From a virus, in IMG/VR virus record IMGVR_UViG_3300030380_004551, positions 1 through 23,585 of that record: DNA of 23,585 bases; one strand, written 5' to 3'. Of the stretch, positions 1,875 through 15,951 are shown piece after piece; position 1 is the stretch's first letter; every line of letters begins with the position of its first letter. The position numbers were made by a program, and so were the translations under genes. Under the pieces are notes generated by a model. That model had not been told where the DNA came from. It ran no database searches and saw nothing but the letters and a program-made list of their open reading frames with translations.

Positions 1875-3033
1875 AAAAGGCGATAAAAGAAGCATAAATT
1901 ACAGCTTTGGTTTTGGAAATAAAATCTCAGTTAGTCCTTCATCAGCTTTGACTTTCTCAGCTGTCTGGGCTGCAATGAGATTGTTAAGTGAATCGGTTTC
2001 ATCACTGCCAATCAAAGTTTGTAAAAAAGAAAACAATGGAGATATTGTTGAGATTGATAATGATTTATCTTATTTATTAAAATACGCTCCGAACACATAT
2101 CAAAACAAAGTTACGTTCATGGAAAAGATTATGATGGACTTGCTTTGTAATGGAAATTCTTATGTGAGAATCGTAAGAAATAATTCTGGAAGGCCGATTG
2201 AATTATTGCCATTGAACTATGCTGGTGTTCAAGTTTACCTTAGAGAAAATAAATTATTTTACACATCAGATGAAGTTGCTGGAACTTTCACATCAGATGA
2301 AATATTACATTTCAAATTAATAACAGATGTAAACGCAACAAAAGGAATAACACACACTGAAGGCGGGATTGTTGGTTTAAGTCCTATTGAACAAAACGCA
2401 AATGCAATCAGTTGGGGTCAATCGGTGGAAGAATATGGAGCAACATTTTTCGCAAATGGAGCAAAACTTTCTGGAATATTAAAAACATCAAGGAGTTTAT
2501 CTGAAACGGCAATTGATAGATTGCGTTCATCTTTTAATAATAATTATGCAAAACTTAGTGGAGCAAATCAAACGGCAGTTTTAGAAGAGGGGCTTGAATA
2601 TCAGCCAATAAGTATTTCAAGCGAACAGGCTCAGTTTCTCCAGAGCAGGAATTTTTCTATTACTGAAATAGCAAGGATATTTAATATACCGCCACACATG
2701 CTAAAAGACTTGAGTAAGTCAAGTTTTAATAATATTGAAATGCAATCACAAGAATTTGTTACTTATACTTTAATGCCTTATTTGACAAAGATTGAAATGG
2801 AGTTAAACATGAAACTTTTTAGAAGAAATCAAATCGGAAAGGAGTATATTAAATTCAATACAAACGCATTATTAAGAGGAAATATAAAAGATAGAACTGA
2901 TTTTTACAAGGCTGGAATCACAAATGGATTTATGACAATCAATGAGGTTAGAAGAAAAGAAGATTTAAACAGAGTTGAGGGAGGGGATAAAAATTATATT
3001 CCTTTGAATTTAACTGATATAGAAAACTTATAA
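1828..3033 (+). CDS. Portal protein, HK97 family
   Basis: Forms the dodecameric portal vertex through which DNA enters and leaves the capsid and to which the terminase and neck proteins dock. The 401 residues have the usual family length and order: an N-terminal segment with SALTFSAVWAAMRLLSE, a central wing (LPLNYAGVQVYL), the block EILHFKLIT...GLSPIE, and the stem/clip segment SITEIARIFNIPPHML. The start is GTG at 1828: the frame is open back to a stop at 1750 but has no ATG. Starting MGILQRLQNIF fits portal N-termini. It overlaps the next gene by one base (TAATG), so head genes are coupled. Confidence 0.95.
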   Translation: MGILQRLQNIFITTPKKGDKRSINYSFGFGNKISVSPSSALTFSAVWAAMRLLSESVSSLPIKVCKKENNGDIVEIDNDLSYLLKYAPNTYQNKVTFMEKIMMDLLCNGNSYVRIVRNNSGRPIELLPLNYAGVQVYLRENKLFYTSDEVAGTFTSDEILHFKLITDVNATKGITHTEGGIVGLSPIEQNANAISWGQSVEEYGATFFANGAKLSGILKTSRSLSETAIDRLRSSFNNNYAKLSGANQTAVLEEGLEYQPISISSEQAQFLQSRNFSITEIARIFNIPPHMLKDLSKSSFNNIEMQSQEFVTYTLMPYLTKIEMELNMKLFRRNQIGKEYIKFNTNALLRGNIKDRTDFYKAGITNGFMTINEVRRKEDLNRVEGGDKNYIPLNLTDIENL

Positions 3034-4721
3034 TGCCAGCAAAAGAATGTGAAAATGGAAAATGGAAGTGGGGCGAAACTGGCGCTTGTAAATATGACTC
3101 TAAAGAAGAGGCTGAAAAAGATAATGAAAATTATTACAGAGATTTAGAAGATATTGATTTGACGCCAACAAAAGGAATGGTTGAAGCGGCAAAAAGAGGG
3201 TTGGAACTTAGAAAAGAATTTGGAAGAGGTGGAACTGAGGTTGGAGTGAAAACTGCTAGAATGATAATATCAAACCAGTTAACAATCCCAAGAGTTAAAA
3301 AAATGTATGCTTATTTCCAAAGACATGAAGTTGACAAACAAGCAGAGGGCTTTGAACTTGGTGAGGATGGTTTCCCCTCAGCTGGAAAAATAGCTTGGAT
3401 GTTGTGGGGCGATGACGCTGGAATGAGCTGGTCAACAAAGAAAAGAAACCAAATTGAAAAGGAAGAGAAAGAAGAAAGAGTTTCGGCAAAAATAAAAAAG
3501 GCTTTGGAAAAAAAGATGAAAGACCATAATGAAGAGGTTTCGGATATGAGTATTGATTGGAATGCAAAAGTTTCTTTAAAAACATTAGAAAAAGTTTTTG
3601 ATAGGGGCGTGGGAGCTTACAATACAAATCCAAGTTCAGTGAGGCCAAGTGTTTCAAGTCCTGAGCAGTGGGCTCTTGCTCGTGTTAATAGTTTTCTTTA
3701 TGCTTTGAAAAAAGGCAAATTTAGAAGTGGAAAACATGATACAGATTTATTGCCATCTAACCATCCAGTAGTTGAAAAAATGAAAGAAGATAAAAATTTG
3801 AGAGCAAAGGTCGGTTCAATGATAACAGATGGAATTGAACTTCCTTTATATGATTCAAAAGAAGAAGCAGAAAAAATGGCTGAAGAGTTAGGTGGGGAGC
3901 CTTCTTTTCACATTCATATTTTAGATGACAAAGAAGTTTATATGCCATTTGAAAATCATGAAGAGGCTTTGAAAGTTATGAGCAAGCCTGAAGAGGAAGA
4001 AATGGAAATGGTTGAAGAGGAAGTTGAAAACAACCATCATTATGAAGAAGAGGAAGAGGAAAGAAAACTTATAAGAAATATTTGGGATAATAAATATAAT
4101 GATATTATGGAAAAAAGAATATACAATTTAGAAACTAGAGTTGAAACAACTGAAAACAACAAAGATGTTGTTGTTGGATATGGGAGTGTTTTTAACAGTA
4201 GAAGTGAGAATCTCGGGGGTTTTTTCGAGTTCATCTCACCAACTGCAATAACTGATGAAACAATAAAAAATTCAGATGTTAGAGCTCTAATAAATCATGA
4301 CCCGAACTTGATATTAGCACGTTCAAAGTTTGGCGAGGGGAATCTTAATCTTTCAATTGATGAAACTGGATTGAAATATTCTTATGAATTACCAGATACA
4401 ACTTATGGAAGAGATTTGGGAGTCAATCTTAAAAATGGAAATATAAGTCAATCTTCTTTTGCCTTTACAATTGCAGAGGGTGGAGATTCATGGACTACTG
4501 ATGAGAATGGAAATGATATTAGAACAATAAACAAAATTGACAGATTGTTTGATATTAGTTCGGTCACTTACCCCGCTTATTCTGAATCTACATCGGATTT
4601 AGTAATTGCACAAAGAGGGCTCCAAAAATATAAAGAATCAATAAAAAGAAAAGATGAAGAAAACGATTTGGTTAAGCGTTCGCTGGCTAAACTAAAAATT
4701 GAAATTGCAAAGCGAAAATAA
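3033..4721 (+). CDS. Multidomain prohead protease (HK97 family protease at C-terminus)
   Basis: A 562-residue protein, much longer than the roughly 200 residues usual for prohead proteases. The C-terminal part (about 359-562) is the HK97-type serine protease that matures the capsid: His422 in INHDPN and the serine pair 474/475 in ISQSSFAF are the likely catalytic residues. In front are several blocks. Residues 1-35 form a small Cys/Trp motif (Cys6, Cys19). Residues 44-130 form a helical block (LELRKEFGRGGTEVG). Residues 165-255 include GAYNTNPSSVRP and RSGKHDTDLLP and resemble a phage domain often annotated DUF5824. Then comes a short HIHILDDKEVYMPF segment and an acidic stretch at 322-352. 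An in-frame ATG at 4107 could yield the protease alone. Protease call confident; functions of the leader blocks unknown. Confidence 0.88.
   Translation: MPAKECENGKWKWGETGACKYDSKEEAEKDNENYYRDLEDIDLTPTKGMVEAAKRGLELRKEFGRGGTEVGVKTARMIISNQLTIPRVKKMYAYFQRHEVDKQAEGFELGEDGFPSAGKIAWMLWGDDAGMSWSTKKRNQIEKEEKEERVSAKIKKALEKKMKDHNEEVSDMSIDWNAKVSLKTLEKVFDRGVGAYNTNPSSVRPSVSSPEQWALARVNSFLYALKKGKFRSGKHDTDLLPSNHPVVEKMKEDKNLRAKVGSMITDGIELPLYDSKEEAEKMAEELGGEPSFHIHILDDKEVYMPFENHEEALKVMSKPEEEEMEMVEEEVENNHHYEEEEEERKLIRNIWDNKYNDIMEKRIYNLETRVETTENNKDVVVGYGSVFNSRSENLGGFFEFISPTAITDETIKNSDVRALINHDPNLILARSKFGEGNLNLSIDETGLKYSYELPDTTYGRDLGVNLKNGNISQSSFAFTIAEGGDSWTTDENGNDIRTINKIDRLFDISSVTYPAYSESTSDLVIAQRGLQKYKESIKRKDEENDLVKRSLAKLKIEIAKRK
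4107..4721 (+). other. Possible internal start giving stand-alone protease (204 aa)
   Basis: In-frame ATG at 4107 (residue 359) directly follows the acidic stretch and precedes MEKRIYNLETR, which looks like the natural N-terminus of a prohead protease. The product would be 204 residues, the normal family length. The upstream bases are A/T-rich like other starts in this phage. Use of this start is inference. Confidence 0.4.
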
Positions 4722-6607: not shown

Positions 6608-6939
6608 GTATCGGACAGTTAGACAGGAGAATTGAAGTAAAAAATTTTACAAGTGTTAAGAATGATTTTGGTGGAACTACCAAAACTTATGCAACTCTTT
6701 ACACTTTGTGGGCAAAAAAAGATTATAAGAAATCAGATAGAAAAGAAGATTCTGAGCAAATCGTTCAAAATACTGAGGTTTGTTTTTATGTGAGAAACAT
6801 GAGTGATATTAGAATTTTAGGAACTTATCACATTCACGATATTGATGAAAACGAAACTTACATAATCCATGGAATAAAAGAAATAGATGGAAGAGATAGA
6901 TTCTTGGAAATAGAAACAACAATAAAAGATAATCAATGA
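6601..6939 (+). CDS. Head closure / head-tail joining protein (SPP1 gp16-like)
   Basis: A 112-residue, beta-rich stopper protein that seals the neck after packaging. The pattern IGQLDRRIEVKNFTSVKNDFGG at the N-terminus, TLWAKKDY in the middle and the closing strands YIIHGIKEIDGRDRFLEIE match the Phage_H_T_join family in length and order. Starts with ATG inside the end of the connector gene and overlaps the next gene by four bases (ATGA). These tight overlaps suggest translational coupling and assembly in fixed ratios. Confidence 0.85.
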   Translation: MLSIGQLDRRIEVKNFTSVKNDFGGTTKTYATLYTLWAKKDYKKSDRKEDSEQIVQNTEVCFYVRNMSDIRILGTYHIHDIDENETYIIHGIKEIDGRDRFLEIETTIKDNQ

Positions 6940-7472
6940 TAGCTGGAGCAAAGTCAAGTCAACAAACAGATAAGATTACATTTGAATTGCAAGGTATGCC
7001 AAAAGTTATTCAAATGTTCAAACAGATTGAAAGATGGAAAGATTCAAAGGCTGCCGATGCTGCTTGGGTTAGATTATGGAAAAAAACAATGAAACCTTTG
7101 CAAGATGCTGCAATTAGAAACGCTCCAGAAGCAGACAAAGACATTCCTTATCCTCCAAAAAAAAGTTTAACAATTAAAAGGGGAACTCTTAAAAACTCAA
7201 TTCAGTGGTTCAGGACTAAAGCTTCAAGAGATGTTAATGGAGGATATATCGGGCCAAGAGTCAAAGGAAAATTTGGTAAAAACAAAGGGGGATATTATGG
7301 CGCTTGGATTGAGTATGGAGACCAAGTGGAACACTTTGGAAAATATACATCTGAGGGAAAAACTTTTATGAAAGACGCTTTTAAAGCAAAAGGAGATAGT
7401 GTAGTTCGTTCAATTTTTCCTTTAGCTGAAAAAATGTATAAAAGAGCGGCTCGAAAATTTGCTAAACAATGA
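6936..7472 (+). CDS. HK97 gp10-like neck/tail completion protein
   Basis: A 178-residue basic protein. It carries the gp10-family pattern: an N-terminal helix-strand (FELQGMPKVIQMFKQIE), a central GTLKNSIQWFRTKAS block, a Gly-rich GGYYGAWIEYGD strand followed by a KTFMKDAF helix, and a Lys/Arg-rich C-terminus. In HK97-like phages this protein sits between head closure and tail terminator, as here. Overlaps neighbours on both sides by four bases. Its exact role (neck whisker, tail completion) is not settled for the family. Family call good. Confidence 0.82.
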   Translation: MIAGAKSSQQTDKITFELQGMPKVIQMFKQIERWKDSKAADAAWVRLWKKTMKPLQDAAIRNAPEADKDIPYPPKKSLTIKRGTLKNSIQWFRTKASRDVNGGYIGPRVKGKFGKNKGGYYGAWIEYGDQVEHFGKYTSEGKTFMKDAFKAKGDSVVRSIFPLAEKMYKRAARKFAKQ

Positions 7473-8557
7473 ATGTAGGGAGGGCAATATATAAAATTTT
7501 ATCTGATAACACGGCTGTTGCTGGTCTTGTTGGAACTAGGATTGCTCCGAGTGTTATGGAACAAAGTTCTCAATTTCCTTTTATAATATATGATATTGCA
7601 AATGATTCTCCAGATACTCAAAAAAGCACAACAGCACAACTCAATTCATATACGATTTTAGTATCGGCTTATTGTCAAACCTACACTGAAGCAAGTTTTC
7701 TTGGTAACTACATAAGAACGGCTTTGGATAGACGTTCAGGAAATTTTAATGGAGTGGAAATCCAGTCAATAGATTTTGAAGGCGTTGATGATGTTTTTGA
7801 TGATATGAGCGGCAAAGATGGAATATTTAGAAAGAGTTTAGATTTTAAAGTGAGAGTTACAAATTCAATCAACAATATATATTCGACAAAGTTTGATGGG
7901 GTTGATGAATCAATCACGTTGCCAGTTACTGGAATGGATTCCATTAAAACATCTGGAAGTTATTCTGTTTGGTTCAAAATGGATGCTGTAACAAGTGGAA
8001 GAGAATTTATTATTTACAAAAAAGATGACAATAATCATATTAGAATCTTTTACAATTACAGCGCATCTGAAATTAGAGCTACTTATAAAGCTGGAGGAAC
8101 TGCCAATATTGCGGCAAAAACTTTTATTTCTGGTGATGGTAATTGGCATCATGTGGCTGCAACTTGGAACTCAACTGGAAATATAAAAATTTACTTTGAT
8201 GGAGATTTGGTTCAAACAACTGCAATAAGTGGAACTTTTACAGGAAGTATTGATTCGGCTGCAATAGGAACCAATCTAACTGGAGGCAATTTTTGGAAAG
8301 GTAATATTGATGAAGTTTCAGTTTTCAACGCTGAATTAAGTTCGTCTCAAATTACAAGTTTATACAATGGAGGTTATCCAGATGCTGTTGCTGGAATATC
8401 AAATATAAAAGTTCATTATAAAATGGGAGATGGAGATAATCAAGGAAATCCGATTGCAACAGCTCCAACAATAAACGATGAAATTGGAAACAATAATGCA
8501 ACAATGGTAAATATGGAACAAGCTGATTTTGTTGCAGACGTACCAAAAGGAATTTAG
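7469..8557 (+). CDS. Tail terminator (DUF3168-like) fused to LamG-like lectin domain
   Basis: A 362-residue fusion. Residues 1-132 look like a complete tail terminator/tail-completion protein of the DUF3168 type: MNVGRAIYKILSDNTAVAGLV, then FPFIIYDIANDSPDTQKS, a SFLGNYIRTALDRRSG helix and closing strands KSLDFKVRV. That part has normal stand-alone length. Residues about 136-305 form a jelly-roll of the LamG/concanavalin type: YSTKFDGVDESITLP, SYSVWFKMD, GNWHHVAATWNSTGNIKIYF, FWKGNIDEVSVFNAELSSSQI and SLYNGG. A short tail (306-362) follows. Terminators cap the tail tube at the neck, so the lectin domain would sit on the neck or upper tail and may bind glycans of the host or environment. Both domain calls are good; function of the fusion is inferred. 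Confidence 0.82.
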   Translation: MNVGRAIYKILSDNTAVAGLVGTRIAPSVMEQSSQFPFIIYDIANDSPDTQKSTTAQLNSYTILVSAYCQTYTEASFLGNYIRTALDRRSGNFNGVEIQSIDFEGVDDVFDDMSGKDGIFRKSLDFKVRVTNSINNIYSTKFDGVDESITLPVTGMDSIKTSGSYSVWFKMDAVTSGREFIIYKKDDNNHIRIFYNYSASEIRATYKAGGTANIAAKTFISGDGNWHHVAATWNSTGNIKIYFDGDLVQTTAISGTFTGSIDSAAIGTNLTGGNFWKGNIDEVSVFNAELSSSQITSLYNGGYPDAVAGISNIKVHYKMGDGDNQGNPIATAPTINDEIGNNNATMVNMEQADFVADVPKGI

Positions 8558-8797: not shown

Positions 8798-8959
8798 ATG
8801 GAATTTAAATTAGAAAAAAAATATACCAGAGGCCACAAAACTTTTGAAGTTGGGAGTGTTATTAAAGTTGATTCTGAAATGTATAACTGGCTCAAAGAAA
8901 ATGGTTATGGAGATAAGGAAAAGAAAACAAAAACAAAAAAAGACAATAATAATAATTAA
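8798..8959 (+). CDS. Very small Lys/Asn-tailed protein before tail tube (53 aa)
   Basis: ATG at 8798, six bases after the previous stop, TAA at 8957-8959; 53 residues. The first 40 are structured-looking (YTRGHKTFEVGSVIKVDSE, MYNWLKENGYGDK), the rest is a low-complexity Lys/Thr/Asn tail. Similar tiny proteins with a 'fixed strand then WL' pattern occur beside tail genes, but I cannot name the family. It fills an otherwise unexplained 180-base interval, is in a start/stop arrangement like its neighbours, and is followed 12 bases later by the tail tube gene. Confidence 0.6.
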   Translation: MEFKLEKKYTRGHKTFEVGSVIKVDSEMYNWLKENGYGDKEKKTKTKKDNNNN

Positions 8960-8971
8960 AAATTAAACAAA

Positions 8972-9412
8972 ATGGCAACTTATAATGGTTCTTTAAATGG
9001 AACAAATCTTGGCGTTTACGTTGATGGTGTTTTAATCGGATTTTCAACAAGCGCAACAATTAATATTAATCAATCTCTTCGTTCAACCTCTTCAAAAGCT
9101 AGTGGTGGATGGGAAGAGAACATGGAGGGAATAAGAAACTTTGATGTTTCAACTGATGCATTATATTTATATACAAATGCAGATGGTTCAACTGTTACAG
9201 AAGTTACGGCTGATGAGCTTTATTTGCACTTACATAATAGAACATCTTTCGCTTTGAAATTTGGAGTTGGAACAACACAAACAGGAGATATCAATTATTC
9301 TGGAACTGGTTTTATTACTTCAATAAGTGTTTCTGCACCAATGGAAGATACTGCAACATATTCAGTTTCTTTTCAAGGAAGTGGAGCTTTAACTCAAACA
9401 ATTAGTAGTTAA
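8972..9412 (+). CDS. Major tail tube protein (TP901-1 type)
   Basis: A 146-residue beta-rich protein that stacks as hexameric rings to make the tail tube. The start MATYNGSLNGTNLGVYVDG, the strand ATININQSLRSTSSKASGGWEE, the block TADELYLHLHNRTSF and the closing strands GTGFITSISVSAPMEDTATYSVSFQGSG match the TP901-1 major tail protein family in length and order. The leader is A-rich without a Shine-Dalgarno sequence. A strong terminator immediately follows, as for the capsid gene, which fits high expression of a structural repeat protein. Confidence 0.9.
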   Translation: MATYNGSLNGTNLGVYVDGVLIGFSTSATININQSLRSTSSKASGGWEENMEGIRNFDVSTDALYLYTNADGSTVTEVTADELYLHLHNRTSFALKFGVGTTQTGDINYSGTGFITSISVSAPMEDTATYSVSFQGSGALTQTISS

Positions 9413-12683: not shown

Positions 12684-15149
12684 ATGGCAGTTCACACGGC
12701 TTATGGTTTACAAAAATACGCAACTTCAGTTGTTAAAAGCATGACTGAGGAAACTTTTACATTAACATTTTGGTGGAGTGGAGGTGGAGGCTCTCAATCT
12801 TGGACTTTAGCGGGAGAGGGTGCTGTTATTGATTATGAAACATCAAGTTCAGATGATAAAAATGCAAGTATAATTTGCTCACAAATGAGCGTTCCTTTAT
12901 TAGTCGAAAACTTAACAGAACAAAATTTTCTTGATGGTTTGAGGTCAAGTTTTCAAGAAAAAGATTTTTGGGTTACTTTAAATGTTGGAACAACTTATGC
13001 GTCTGGTTCTTTGATTTGGGCGGGTTACATGATTTTTGACTTAGAAACAAAAGAAGATATTTCTTTTCCTTACGTTCAAAATTTAACTTTTATTGATGGA
13101 ATTTCAACTTTAAAAGAGATTCCTTTTATAAGAGATACAAATTCGGAAGATGGCTCAGTTCCAACATATCCTTATGTAAGACAAGACACTTTTGATAACG
13201 GTGGATATAGAAGGCCAATTGGAGGAAGTCAAACATGGTTCAAAATGTTGATTGATAGGGTTGGAATGTTACTTGACCAAGATGACACTGGAGGCGATTT
13301 GGAAAATTATACAATTCAAACTTCTTTCAATTGGTGGAATGATGATATGGATGGCTCTCCTTCAGCAACAACCGACCCCTTATTTTTAATGAAGTTTTCA
13401 ATGCGTCCTTTTTACGAAAGAGATGAGAATGGATTTATGAAGGTTCCGACCTGTTATGATGTATTGGAACAAGTTTGCAAAAATTTTAACATGAGATTTA
13501 TTTATTGGAATCATACTTTCCACTTTATTCAAGTAAATCAATATAACACAGATGAATCAGGTGTTGCCCCTTATACAACTCCAATTAATATTCCAACAAG
13601 AGAATATTTTTACACAGGTTCAGCAAGGACTCAAAACAACTTTATTGGAAATACTAATTATTCATTATATAATATGGTCTTTGAAAATGTTACAAATCCA
13701 TCAAAAGGACTTCAAAAGCTTTCTGGTTCAACTTATCAATCACTTGCTGCTATCAAAAAAACAACTGGAACTTATTCTCAAAATGCTGGGATTAATGTTT
13801 TCAGCGGCTATCCTTTATTTGTTACTCATAATACTGGAAGTATAACTCCAACAGCTTGGCCAACAACTGGAAGTTATTCAGAAATAAAACAAACATCAAA
13901 TACAAATGGATTTGAAAATTCAATGGAAATCACAAACGCAAAAGAATTGGATGGATTTGTTTGCAAGATTTATGGAAATTTTGTGAACACAAGTGCTGCT
14001 GATTTGAAAATGGAAATGGCTTGGACTATTCTAGCAAAGCCTTTGGATTCAGCTTGGGGCGATTCTGACAATTTAACAATGTTTAGATTTCAAGGAGCTA
14101 CTTTTGCAGAATTTAGATGGCAATCTATTACTGGCGAATTTCCTTTGCAAAACCCGCAACAATATATGATTGATTGGCTTTGGATTCCAGCTAATACTGG
14201 TCAAAATGGAGTTATTTTAGAAATGTTTAATTCAACAACAACATCAACAACAAACACAACAAACAATCTTATTCCGATTGATAGTTCAATGGATGGGGAT
14301 TGGGAGTTTAAATTCTACACTTTTACTGGATATGATTCAACGCCAGGTGCTGGAGATACTAAGGTTCAAGCAAAAGGCTACAGTTCATTTTCAAATGTTA
14401 AATATTCTCATGGTAGAATTGTTGATATGAACGGCTCAACATCGGGGCTGGTTCTTGGAGATACGCCCCCAAATTATTCTTTTGACTATACTGATGCGGT
14501 TGACAATTCATCCCCTCCAATTTTGATTTCTCAATTTGTTCCAGTTGCTTCAAGTGCTGCTCAATTTGGAACGGCTTCCAATCAAACTGAATTTGAACAA
14601 GCTGGAAACAATACTTTTGTTTATGATATTGGAGAGGTCATTTATGGAGATGGAACTGGAGCAAACACAACTTCAACATTAAAAGTTTTTGATGGAAGCT
14701 CGTTTGTTTTTGTCAATCCAGATGGAAAATGGGCAGAAAATGTTTATACTTGGAATGGAAGTTCTTATGTTTATTCAACTGTCACTTATGACAAAAAAAT
14801 AATTGAACTTTTATCAGAATCAATTTTGTTTAACCAGAGCAAACCAATTTTAACAATTGGAACAACTACTGCTCTTGGAGTTAATGACAAATATTTTTCA
14901 GGCTCAACAAAATTAAAATTTATGAATCCAATTTCAAGATTGCAAGATACTGATAATAAAAAATACATGATGATGAGATGCTCGTACAATATAGCGGGAG
15001 ATGAATGGAGTGGAGATTGGGTTCAAGTTTTTAGGAGTGTTCCAGCTTCTACAACAATTAATTCAAATCAAGGGCCTTCATCTGGTTTTAGTTCAACATT
15101 AACAACAACAACGAGTAATAACACGGGAACAACTGGAAATTCTATATAA
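12684..15149 (+). CDS. Large tail-tip / baseplate hub protein
   Basis: An 821-residue beta-rich protein directly after the tape measure, the usual place of distal tail and hub proteins. The first 150 residues resemble a distal-tail-like domain (FTLTFWWSGGG, SLIWAGYMIFDLETKEDISFP, FIDGISTLKEIPF). The middle has YDVLEQVCKNFNMRFIYWNHTFHFIQ, a pattern seen in tail hubs. The C-terminal half is Thr/Ser/Asn-rich with aromatic-Gly strands (EFKFYTFTGYDSTPG) that look carbohydrate-module-like. The end (NTGTTGNS) is low complexity. It may combine Dit and Tal functions in one chain, as I have seen suggested for Bacteroidetes phages. Position is strong evidence; the exact role is inferred. Confidence 0.65.
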   Translation: MAVHTAYGLQKYATSVVKSMTEETFTLTFWWSGGGGSQSWTLAGEGAVIDYETSSSDDKNASIICSQMSVPLLVENLTEQNFLDGLRSSFQEKDFWVTLNVGTTYASGSLIWAGYMIFDLETKEDISFPYVQNLTFIDGISTLKEIPFIRDTNSEDGSVPTYPYVRQDTFDNGGYRRPIGGSQTWFKMLIDRVGMLLDQDDTGGDLENYTIQTSFNWWNDDMDGSPSATTDPLFLMKFSMRPFYERDENGFMKVPTCYDVLEQVCKNFNMRFIYWNHTFHFIQVNQYNTDESGVAPYTTPINIPTREYFYTGSARTQNNFIGNTNYSLYNMVFENVTNPSKGLQKLSGSTYQSLAAIKKTTGTYSQNAGINVFSGYPLFVTHNTGSITPTAWPTTGSYSEIKQTSNTNGFENSMEITNAKELDGFVCKIYGNFVNTSAADLKMEMAWTILAKPLDSAWGDSDNLTMFRFQGATFAEFRWQSITGEFPLQNPQQYMIDWLWIPANTGQNGVILEMFNSTTTSTTNTTNNLIPIDSSMDGDWEFKFYTFTGYDSTPGAGDTKVQAKGYSSFSNVKYSHGRIVDMNGSTSGLVLGDTPPNYSFDYTDAVDNSSPPILISQFVPVASSAAQFGTASNQTEFEQAGNNTFVYDIGEVIYGDGTGANTTSTLKVFDGSSFVFVNPDGKWAENVYTWNGSSYVYSTVTYDKKIIELLSESILFNQSKPILTIGTTTALGVNDKYFSGSTKLKFMNPISRLQDTDNKKYMMMRCSYNIAGDEWSGDWVQVFRSVPASTTINSNQGPSSGFSSTLTTTTSNNTGTTGNSI

Positions 15150-15150
15150 T

Positions 15151-15951
15151 ATGATAAGTTTTCCAAATACAATACAAATAAATAAAAAAGAATTAAGTAA
15201 TTCTTTAGACATTGCTGAGCTTACAACTATTATAAGCGATTCAAGTGCTATAACATCTTTAGCCGTTACATCAACAAAAGTTGATTTGAAAAATGGAGAT
15301 AGAATCATGATTAATGGTCAATCTTTTCAAATTGCTGCTGACGCTTCGGCGGGTGCTAGAAGTTTGACAATAACATCAATAACGCCATCAATTCCTTTAG
15401 GCATTGGAGATAAAATCTCAATTGACAAAGAAAATCTTTTCGTTCAATATCAAAGAAAAACAGAGGGAAAAATTGCTGGAATGCCAGTTGATTCAAACAA
15501 TCTAGGGCCTATTAATTTCACTTCTAATGTTTACAGTATTACCGCAGTTGACACAACATATATAAAAATACTTCCGAGAGATTTCATGGTCAATGATGAT
15601 GCAACAAGTCCGAACATAACACCAGCAATTTTTAATGATGGAACGAACACTGGAGTTTCGGTTGAAAACACTTCACAAGAACTTATTGCAACAGTCAACA
15701 TTCCAAGTGGAACCACAGCAACTGAAGTTTATATTTATGGAAGTAATGATACCAAATCTGTTGAGGTTTACGAAATGGATTTTAATGCAAATGGAAAAGG
15801 AGAAACAATTGGAAATGGAACTACAAATGGAGAAGCAATTAGCATTGGAGAAATTGCCTCTTCTGCAACAAATTTCTTAATGATAAAAATATTAGTTTCA
15901 TCTACAAATCACAGGATATGGGGTGGAAAAGTAACACTAACACAAAATTAA
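15151..15951 (+). CDS. Probable tail fibre / adhesin protein (266 aa)
   Basis: Begins at ATG 15151, one base after the hub stop. The 266 residues are Ser/Thr/Ile-rich. They show a repeated-strand segment with DLKNGDRIMINGQSFQIA and a GARSLTITSITPSIPLGIGD block, then YQRKTEGKIAGMPVDSN, and a C-terminal half of beta strands (ATEVYIYGSNDTKSVEVYEM, MIKILVSSTNHRIWGGKVTL). No enzyme motif. Position between tail tip and lysis genes, together with beta-rich composition, fits a fibre or adsorption protein. Structural role is likely; receptor binding is inference. Confidence 0.6.
   Translation: MISFPNTIQINKKELSNSLDIAELTTIISDSSAITSLAVTSTKVDLKNGDRIMINGQSFQIAADASAGARSLTITSITPSIPLGIGDKISIDKENLFVQYQRKTEGKIAGMPVDSNNLGPINFTSNVYSITAVDTTYIKILPRDFMVNDDATSPNITPAIFNDGTNTGVSVENTSQELIATVNIPSGTTATEVYIYGSNDTKSVEVYEMDFNANGKGETIGNGTTNGEAISIGEIASSATNFLMIKILVSSTNHRIWGGKVTLTQN

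Follow-up and report, generated by a model that had tools for sequence, protein, structure and literature searches.

A tail terminator fused to a LamG domain and linked to a small ORF as a candidate exchangeable adhesin cassette at the siphophage neck

In lactococcal phages, sugar-binding modules vary at three sites, the neck (NPS), the tail tube and Dit (PMC6669499). Infection by TP901-1 does not require its NPS collar (PMC6669499), and domain shuffling has a hotspot in NPS proteins (PMC10684548). Tail tube proteins of lambda, SPP1, T5 and YSD1, and TpeX of the 936 phages, provide examples of an optional accessory domain on a ring-forming protein, in the form of CBM- or Ig-like C-terminal extensions. 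Tail terminators assemble into a hexameric ring that sits beneath the stopper and caps the tail tube (PMC13033339; PMC11784142), and some in contractile systems, PVC16 and others, bear an extra C-terminal domain, which is a duplicated terminator fold or a sheath contact (PMC11784142).

The window analysed here is the whole of the 23,585-base IMG/VR virus record IMGVR_UViG_3300030380_004551. An ORF at 7469-8557 (plus strand; P0001) encodes 362 aa in a single uninterrupted frame, and its ATG overlaps the stop codon of the upstream gene (ATGA). Residues 1-132 (7469..7864, plus strand) constitute a tail-terminator domain: PF11367 (Tail_completion_gp17), formerly DUF3168, covers residues 5-130 with 32.5 bits against a curated cut-off of 24.5, and the PHROG_347 'tail terminator' family matches with an E value of 1.6e-31. 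Standalone relatives score 40-46 bits with PF11367 and measure 133-138 aa in the closest clades, confirming that the domain ends at about residue 132. A linker of residues 133-138 (S-INNIY; 7865..7882, plus strand), delimited by junction comparison, leads into a LamG/ConA jelly-roll with a conserved C-terminal segment (residues 139-362; 7883..8554, plus strand). The Pfam LamG core (7895-8353, plus strand) corresponds to a PF13385 (Laminin_G_3) match over residues 143-295, with an E value of 1.4e-24 and 87.4 bits (curated cut-off 27.6). The initial annotation had placed the jelly-roll at residues 136-305; the fold assignment stands, and the boundary at 305 does not, since alignment of homologues reveals a segment running to residue 362 (...MGDG...TM.NM...D..VP) that persists even in homologues with a divergent LamG core.

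An AlphaFold2 model of the fusion, built on 42 aligned homologues, has a mean pLDDT of 85, with values of 94-98 over most of the jelly-roll. In Foldseek comparisons with the PDB, the LamG part best matches a putative carbohydrate-binding protein from Bacteroides, pentraxins and other ConA-like domains, with a TMt of up to 0.69 for the pentraxin C-reactive protein. Among the viral models of BFVD, LamG-like proteins of marine viruses are the top matches to the fusion, and a 132-aa viral 'Tail completion protein' superimposes on its N-terminal part with a TMt of 0.86 and an rmsd of 2.0 over 129 columns. The agreement of sequence families with predicted structure confirms that P0001 combines, in one frame, a PF11367 tail terminator with a LamG/ConA jelly-roll, so that the complete N-terminal terminator and the same-frame C-terminal lectin fold first read from the sequence both hold.

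The fusion is embedded in a canonical siphophage gene order: head-tail adaptor Ad1 (5999), head closure Hc1 (6601), an HK97 gp10-like neck/tail completion gene overlapping the fusion start (6936..7472, plus strand; PF04883), the fusion, and the tail tube (major tail) protein gene (8972..9412, plus strand; PF06199 and phrog_1407), followed by a tail chaperone-like gene (9500) and the tape measure gene (10188). Lying between the head-closure/gp10-like genes and the tail tube gene, it occupies the terminator position, and this order together with the known place of terminators in virions supports the earlier suggestion that the lectin sits at the neck. Of cultured phages with a similar gene order, Cellulophaga phage phi39:1 has the nearest capsid, at 24% identity; in this phage the order around the terminator is the same and the products are annotated as virion proteins by MS/MS, including gp17, at the syntenic terminator position, which has a weak phrog_347 match. 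Searches with the terminase and capsid gave relatives too remote for host assignment, and from such sequence comparisons a Bacteroidota host is plausible only. A prohead protease (PF04586) at 3033-4721 is unusually long (562 aa), with a long same-frame N-terminal part in which a DUF5824 match lies. Behind the tape measure, the genes at 12684-15149 (821 aa) and 15151-15951 (266 aa) presumably encode tail-tip components; the 821-aa product matches no family, neither contains a LamG domain, and no recognisable receptor-binding protein was found in the 23,585-base record.

Six scans of viral contigs, with identical proteins removed, yielded 81 distinct fusions of terminator and LamG along with 78 distinct standalone terminators, and among 160 distinct proteins of the family no C-terminal domain other than LamG was seen. 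Homologous fusions, whose presence in further phages the initial annotation had raised, are thus frequent in viral contigs and were not recovered from cultured phages, where tblastn with three fused proteins returned LamG-only or terminator-only matches and no record with 80% coverage. Scans of bacterial genomes for short peptide patterns, which divergent prophages may escape, detected no relative of the fusion or of its downstream neighbour ACC. Both halves of the fusion are under purifying selection: among close relatives of 94-100% identity, dN/dS is 0.02-0.07 for the terminator and 0.04-0.10 for the LamG part, and the medians in a wider clade are 0.085 and 0.267, respectively, indicating that the LamG part is kept by selection but diverges faster than the terminator. 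A stop or frameshift between the halves, named at the outset as what would undo the fusion, is absent from all 81 distinct fused homologues. An annotation or assembly artefact, in which a missed stop or frameshift joined two genes, is effectively ruled out by these in-frame homologues from many contigs, by the 94-100% identity of close relatives across the junction and by the low dN/dS of both halves.

Fused and unfused states interleave on a maximum-likelihood tree of 58 terminators, which was built with a quick method and has some long branches. The tree implies at least 8 changes of state, 3 of them forced by well-supported branches, compared with a mean of 19.7 when the states are shuffled; the LamG module has been gained or lost repeatedly among terminators. 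One fused and one unfused terminator (L014 and L026, respectively), about 82% identical, are sisters on this tree. The junctions of such loci (MRYELLKDWPSKRHGKTI in L014, MKYELLKDWPSKRHGKTI in L026) define the site of change. A typical standalone gene ends in ...R-I-I-N-(S/T/N)-stop and the next gene begins a few bases on, whereas fused genes run on from that end residue through LamG, are followed by ACC, and then rejoin the same next gene as in standalone loci. The insert of about 0.93 kb therefore lies, as one unit, exactly between the last codon of the terminator and the next gene. Its right boundary in the window is a 53-aa lysine-tailed ORF (8798..8959, plus strand), identified by junction comparison, whose type directly follows the terminator in phages that do not have the cassette. 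This small ORF is conserved throughout the phage group between the terminator or cassette and the tail tube gene. No LamG of this kind was found elsewhere in the contigs of near-complete standalone relatives, indicating that the module is dispensable.

The second half of the insert, missed by the initial account of the fusion, is a 77-aa ORF (ACC, P0002; 8559..8792, plus strand), which starts 1 nt past the fusion stop codon. Its AlphaFold2 model is a confident small alpha/beta fold (pLDDT 92) with no match in the PDB (Foldseek; best E value 0.5), and its sequence has no match in Pfam, PHROG or NCBIfam. Weak single matches among 36 ACC members (BppU_N, 0.005; PHROGs, 0.0009 and 0.002) were judged to be chance. 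Linkage between the two parts is close, in counts from contigs that overlap in lineage: ACC accompanies 74 of 76 fused terminators (absent in 2, with 5 more at contig edges); LamG is adjacent in 75 of 75 assessable ACC-selected loci (3 more at contig edges), LamG having been kept out of the query that selected them; and neither LamG nor ACC is present at 72 of 72 standalone terminators (6 more at contig edges). At LamG loci that have no terminator, ACC is present in 27 of 29 and absent in 2 (3 more at contig edges), a figure possibly biased towards one LamG subfamily because the LamG profile was built from ACC-adjacent proteins. These counts identify the insert as a two-gene LamG-ACC cassette, and an independent Pfam check recovered LamG in ten selected carriers, nine of them above the cut-off.

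Small proteins encoded behind tail fibres are known to help fold or assemble them. ACC resembles such helpers in its place directly behind adhesin-type genes, and by this analogy it would most likely help the LamG domain to fold or assemble. It is not strictly required, since two fused lineages do without it. In partial Mantel tests, where all trees correlate, ACC distances track the terminator as much as LamG and so offer no indication, apart from linkage, that LamG and ACC have specifically co-evolved.

The cassette is mobile and also occurs on other phage proteins. The LamG-ACC pair is found on terminators of two divergent subfamilies, that of the window and that of L085, L099 and L104; behind an unrelated N-terminal domain of about 160 aa (L075); on proteins barely larger than LamG itself (L106-L108, L226, L228 and L253); and on multi-LamG arrays in contigs of 190-210 kb (L241 and L246). 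Among cultured phages, an ACC-like gene follows that of a 960-aa protein with four LamG repeats in Synechococcus phage S-SKS1, and Flavobacterium phage immuto has one near LamG genes, directly behind a protein that has no Pfam match; Synechococcus phage S-H68 has LamG with a similar C-terminal tail and no ACC. A broader reading, possible but tentative, is that LamG and ACC would form a self-contained, portable adhesin unit, which marine-type phages attach by recombination to the C-termini of various virion proteins, with ACC as a new family of lectin chaperones or cofactors. Several loci depart from the simple arrangement. L075 (2653-3867) has the LamG-ACC-small ORF-tail tube block of the window behind different upstream genes, of a different capsid type, and is either a natural recombinant or a chimeric assembly. 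In L109 (3980-4998) the LamG gene lies downstream rather than upstream of ACC, the sole such locus in one ACC scan. L241, L246, L238, L231 and L244, in contigs of up to 210 kb, contain several LamG genes or repeats in a row, with few copies of ACC for each run.

We favour, with moderate confidence, a model in which the fusion is a functional terminator whose LamG domains act as accessory glycan-binding adhesins. As inferred from terminator biology, the protein would form a hexameric ring at the end of the tail nearest the head, placing six LamG domains around the neck. The domains may project outward, and by analogy with the lactococcal neck modules they would bind polysaccharide of the host surface or surrounding matrix reversibly and with low affinity, apart from the tail-tip machinery for receptor binding. 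LamG would have arrived together with ACC, its likely helper, as a single exchangeable cassette at the 3' end of the terminator gene. Outward display is not guaranteed: in T5, tagging the C-terminus of the terminator led to aberrant polymerisation, and the tag may end up folded inside the lumen (PMC11784142).

Structural decoration of the head-tail joint or tail ring, with LamG stabilising it by binding virion proteins rather than glycans, would have a parallel in the Ig-like domains at the periphery of tail tubes, which often have no clear function. Protein contacts are another known use of LamG/ConA folds, the domain begins only about 6 residues from the terminator core, and peripheral C-terminal domains are common on tail tube proteins (PMC9022992). 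We nevertheless consider such a role unlikely, given that close relatives assemble with no LamG (the 78 distinct standalone terminators), that the same LamG-ACC pair occurs on unrelated carriers, and that relatives have exchanged the LamG type but retained the terminator: terminators related to that of the window (L015-L017, 405 aa) carry a second, very different LamG type. Another use of the same putative glycan-binding fold, to which the domain and structural evidence applies equally, would be to hold phages near their hosts through matrix polysaccharide (mucus, exopolymer or algal glycan) instead of through the host cell itself. Ig-like capsid domains that bind mucus are a known analogue, and the neck is far from the membrane-contacting tip. 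By sequence this function is inseparable from host binding, and as an exclusive role it appears improbable to us.

Compared with known systems, the closest precedent for the proposed neck adhesin is the NPS of lactococcal 936 and P335 siphophages (PMC6669499), in which carbohydrate-binding-type domains at the siphophage neck likewise vary between close relatives, are present in part of the group only (73 of 113) and are followed by short conserved C-terminal tails. The NPS is built from a protein of its own, which has coiled-coil fibres and, at its N-terminus, a BppU-like ring domain, whereas here the scaffold is the terminator, with no fibre, the lectin fold is LamG, and the phages are uncultured contigs, the nearest cultured relative being a phage of a Gram-negative marine bacterium. 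BppU_N has no Pfam match in P0001 at E ≤ 1, which sets the fusion apart from lactococcal-type NPS. Tail tube extensions decorate the whole tube, while here the terminator alone would carry the domain, in six copies at the neck, and no frameshift is used in the window. Unlike the extra domain of PVC16-type terminators, that of the fusion has a lectin fold and is encoded in the gene cluster of a non-contractile tail. PHROG_347 (394 positions) is the same family as the fusion and already contains it unremarked, as model positions 126-394 match LamG domains (L075); it is annotated 'tail terminator' alone, with no mention of the lectin or the small ORF. Among open-licence papers, none was found that joins 'tail terminator' and LamG. 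Neck-displayed sugar-binding modules are already known; the terminator scaffold and the LamG-ACC cassette appear undescribed.

Terminators have been treated as plain joint proteins, and here they emerge as a recurrent platform for a probable neck lectin, in several lineages, with other proteins and multi-LamG arrays carrying the module elsewhere. In environmental phages, ACC is a marker by which LamG adhesins can be found from sequence, and it is a candidate for a new class of assembly helpers. Natural pairs with and without the cassette, such as L014 and L026, make the role of LamG in adsorption or host range directly testable. The LamG domain probably gives the neck of these viruses a swappable sticky patch.
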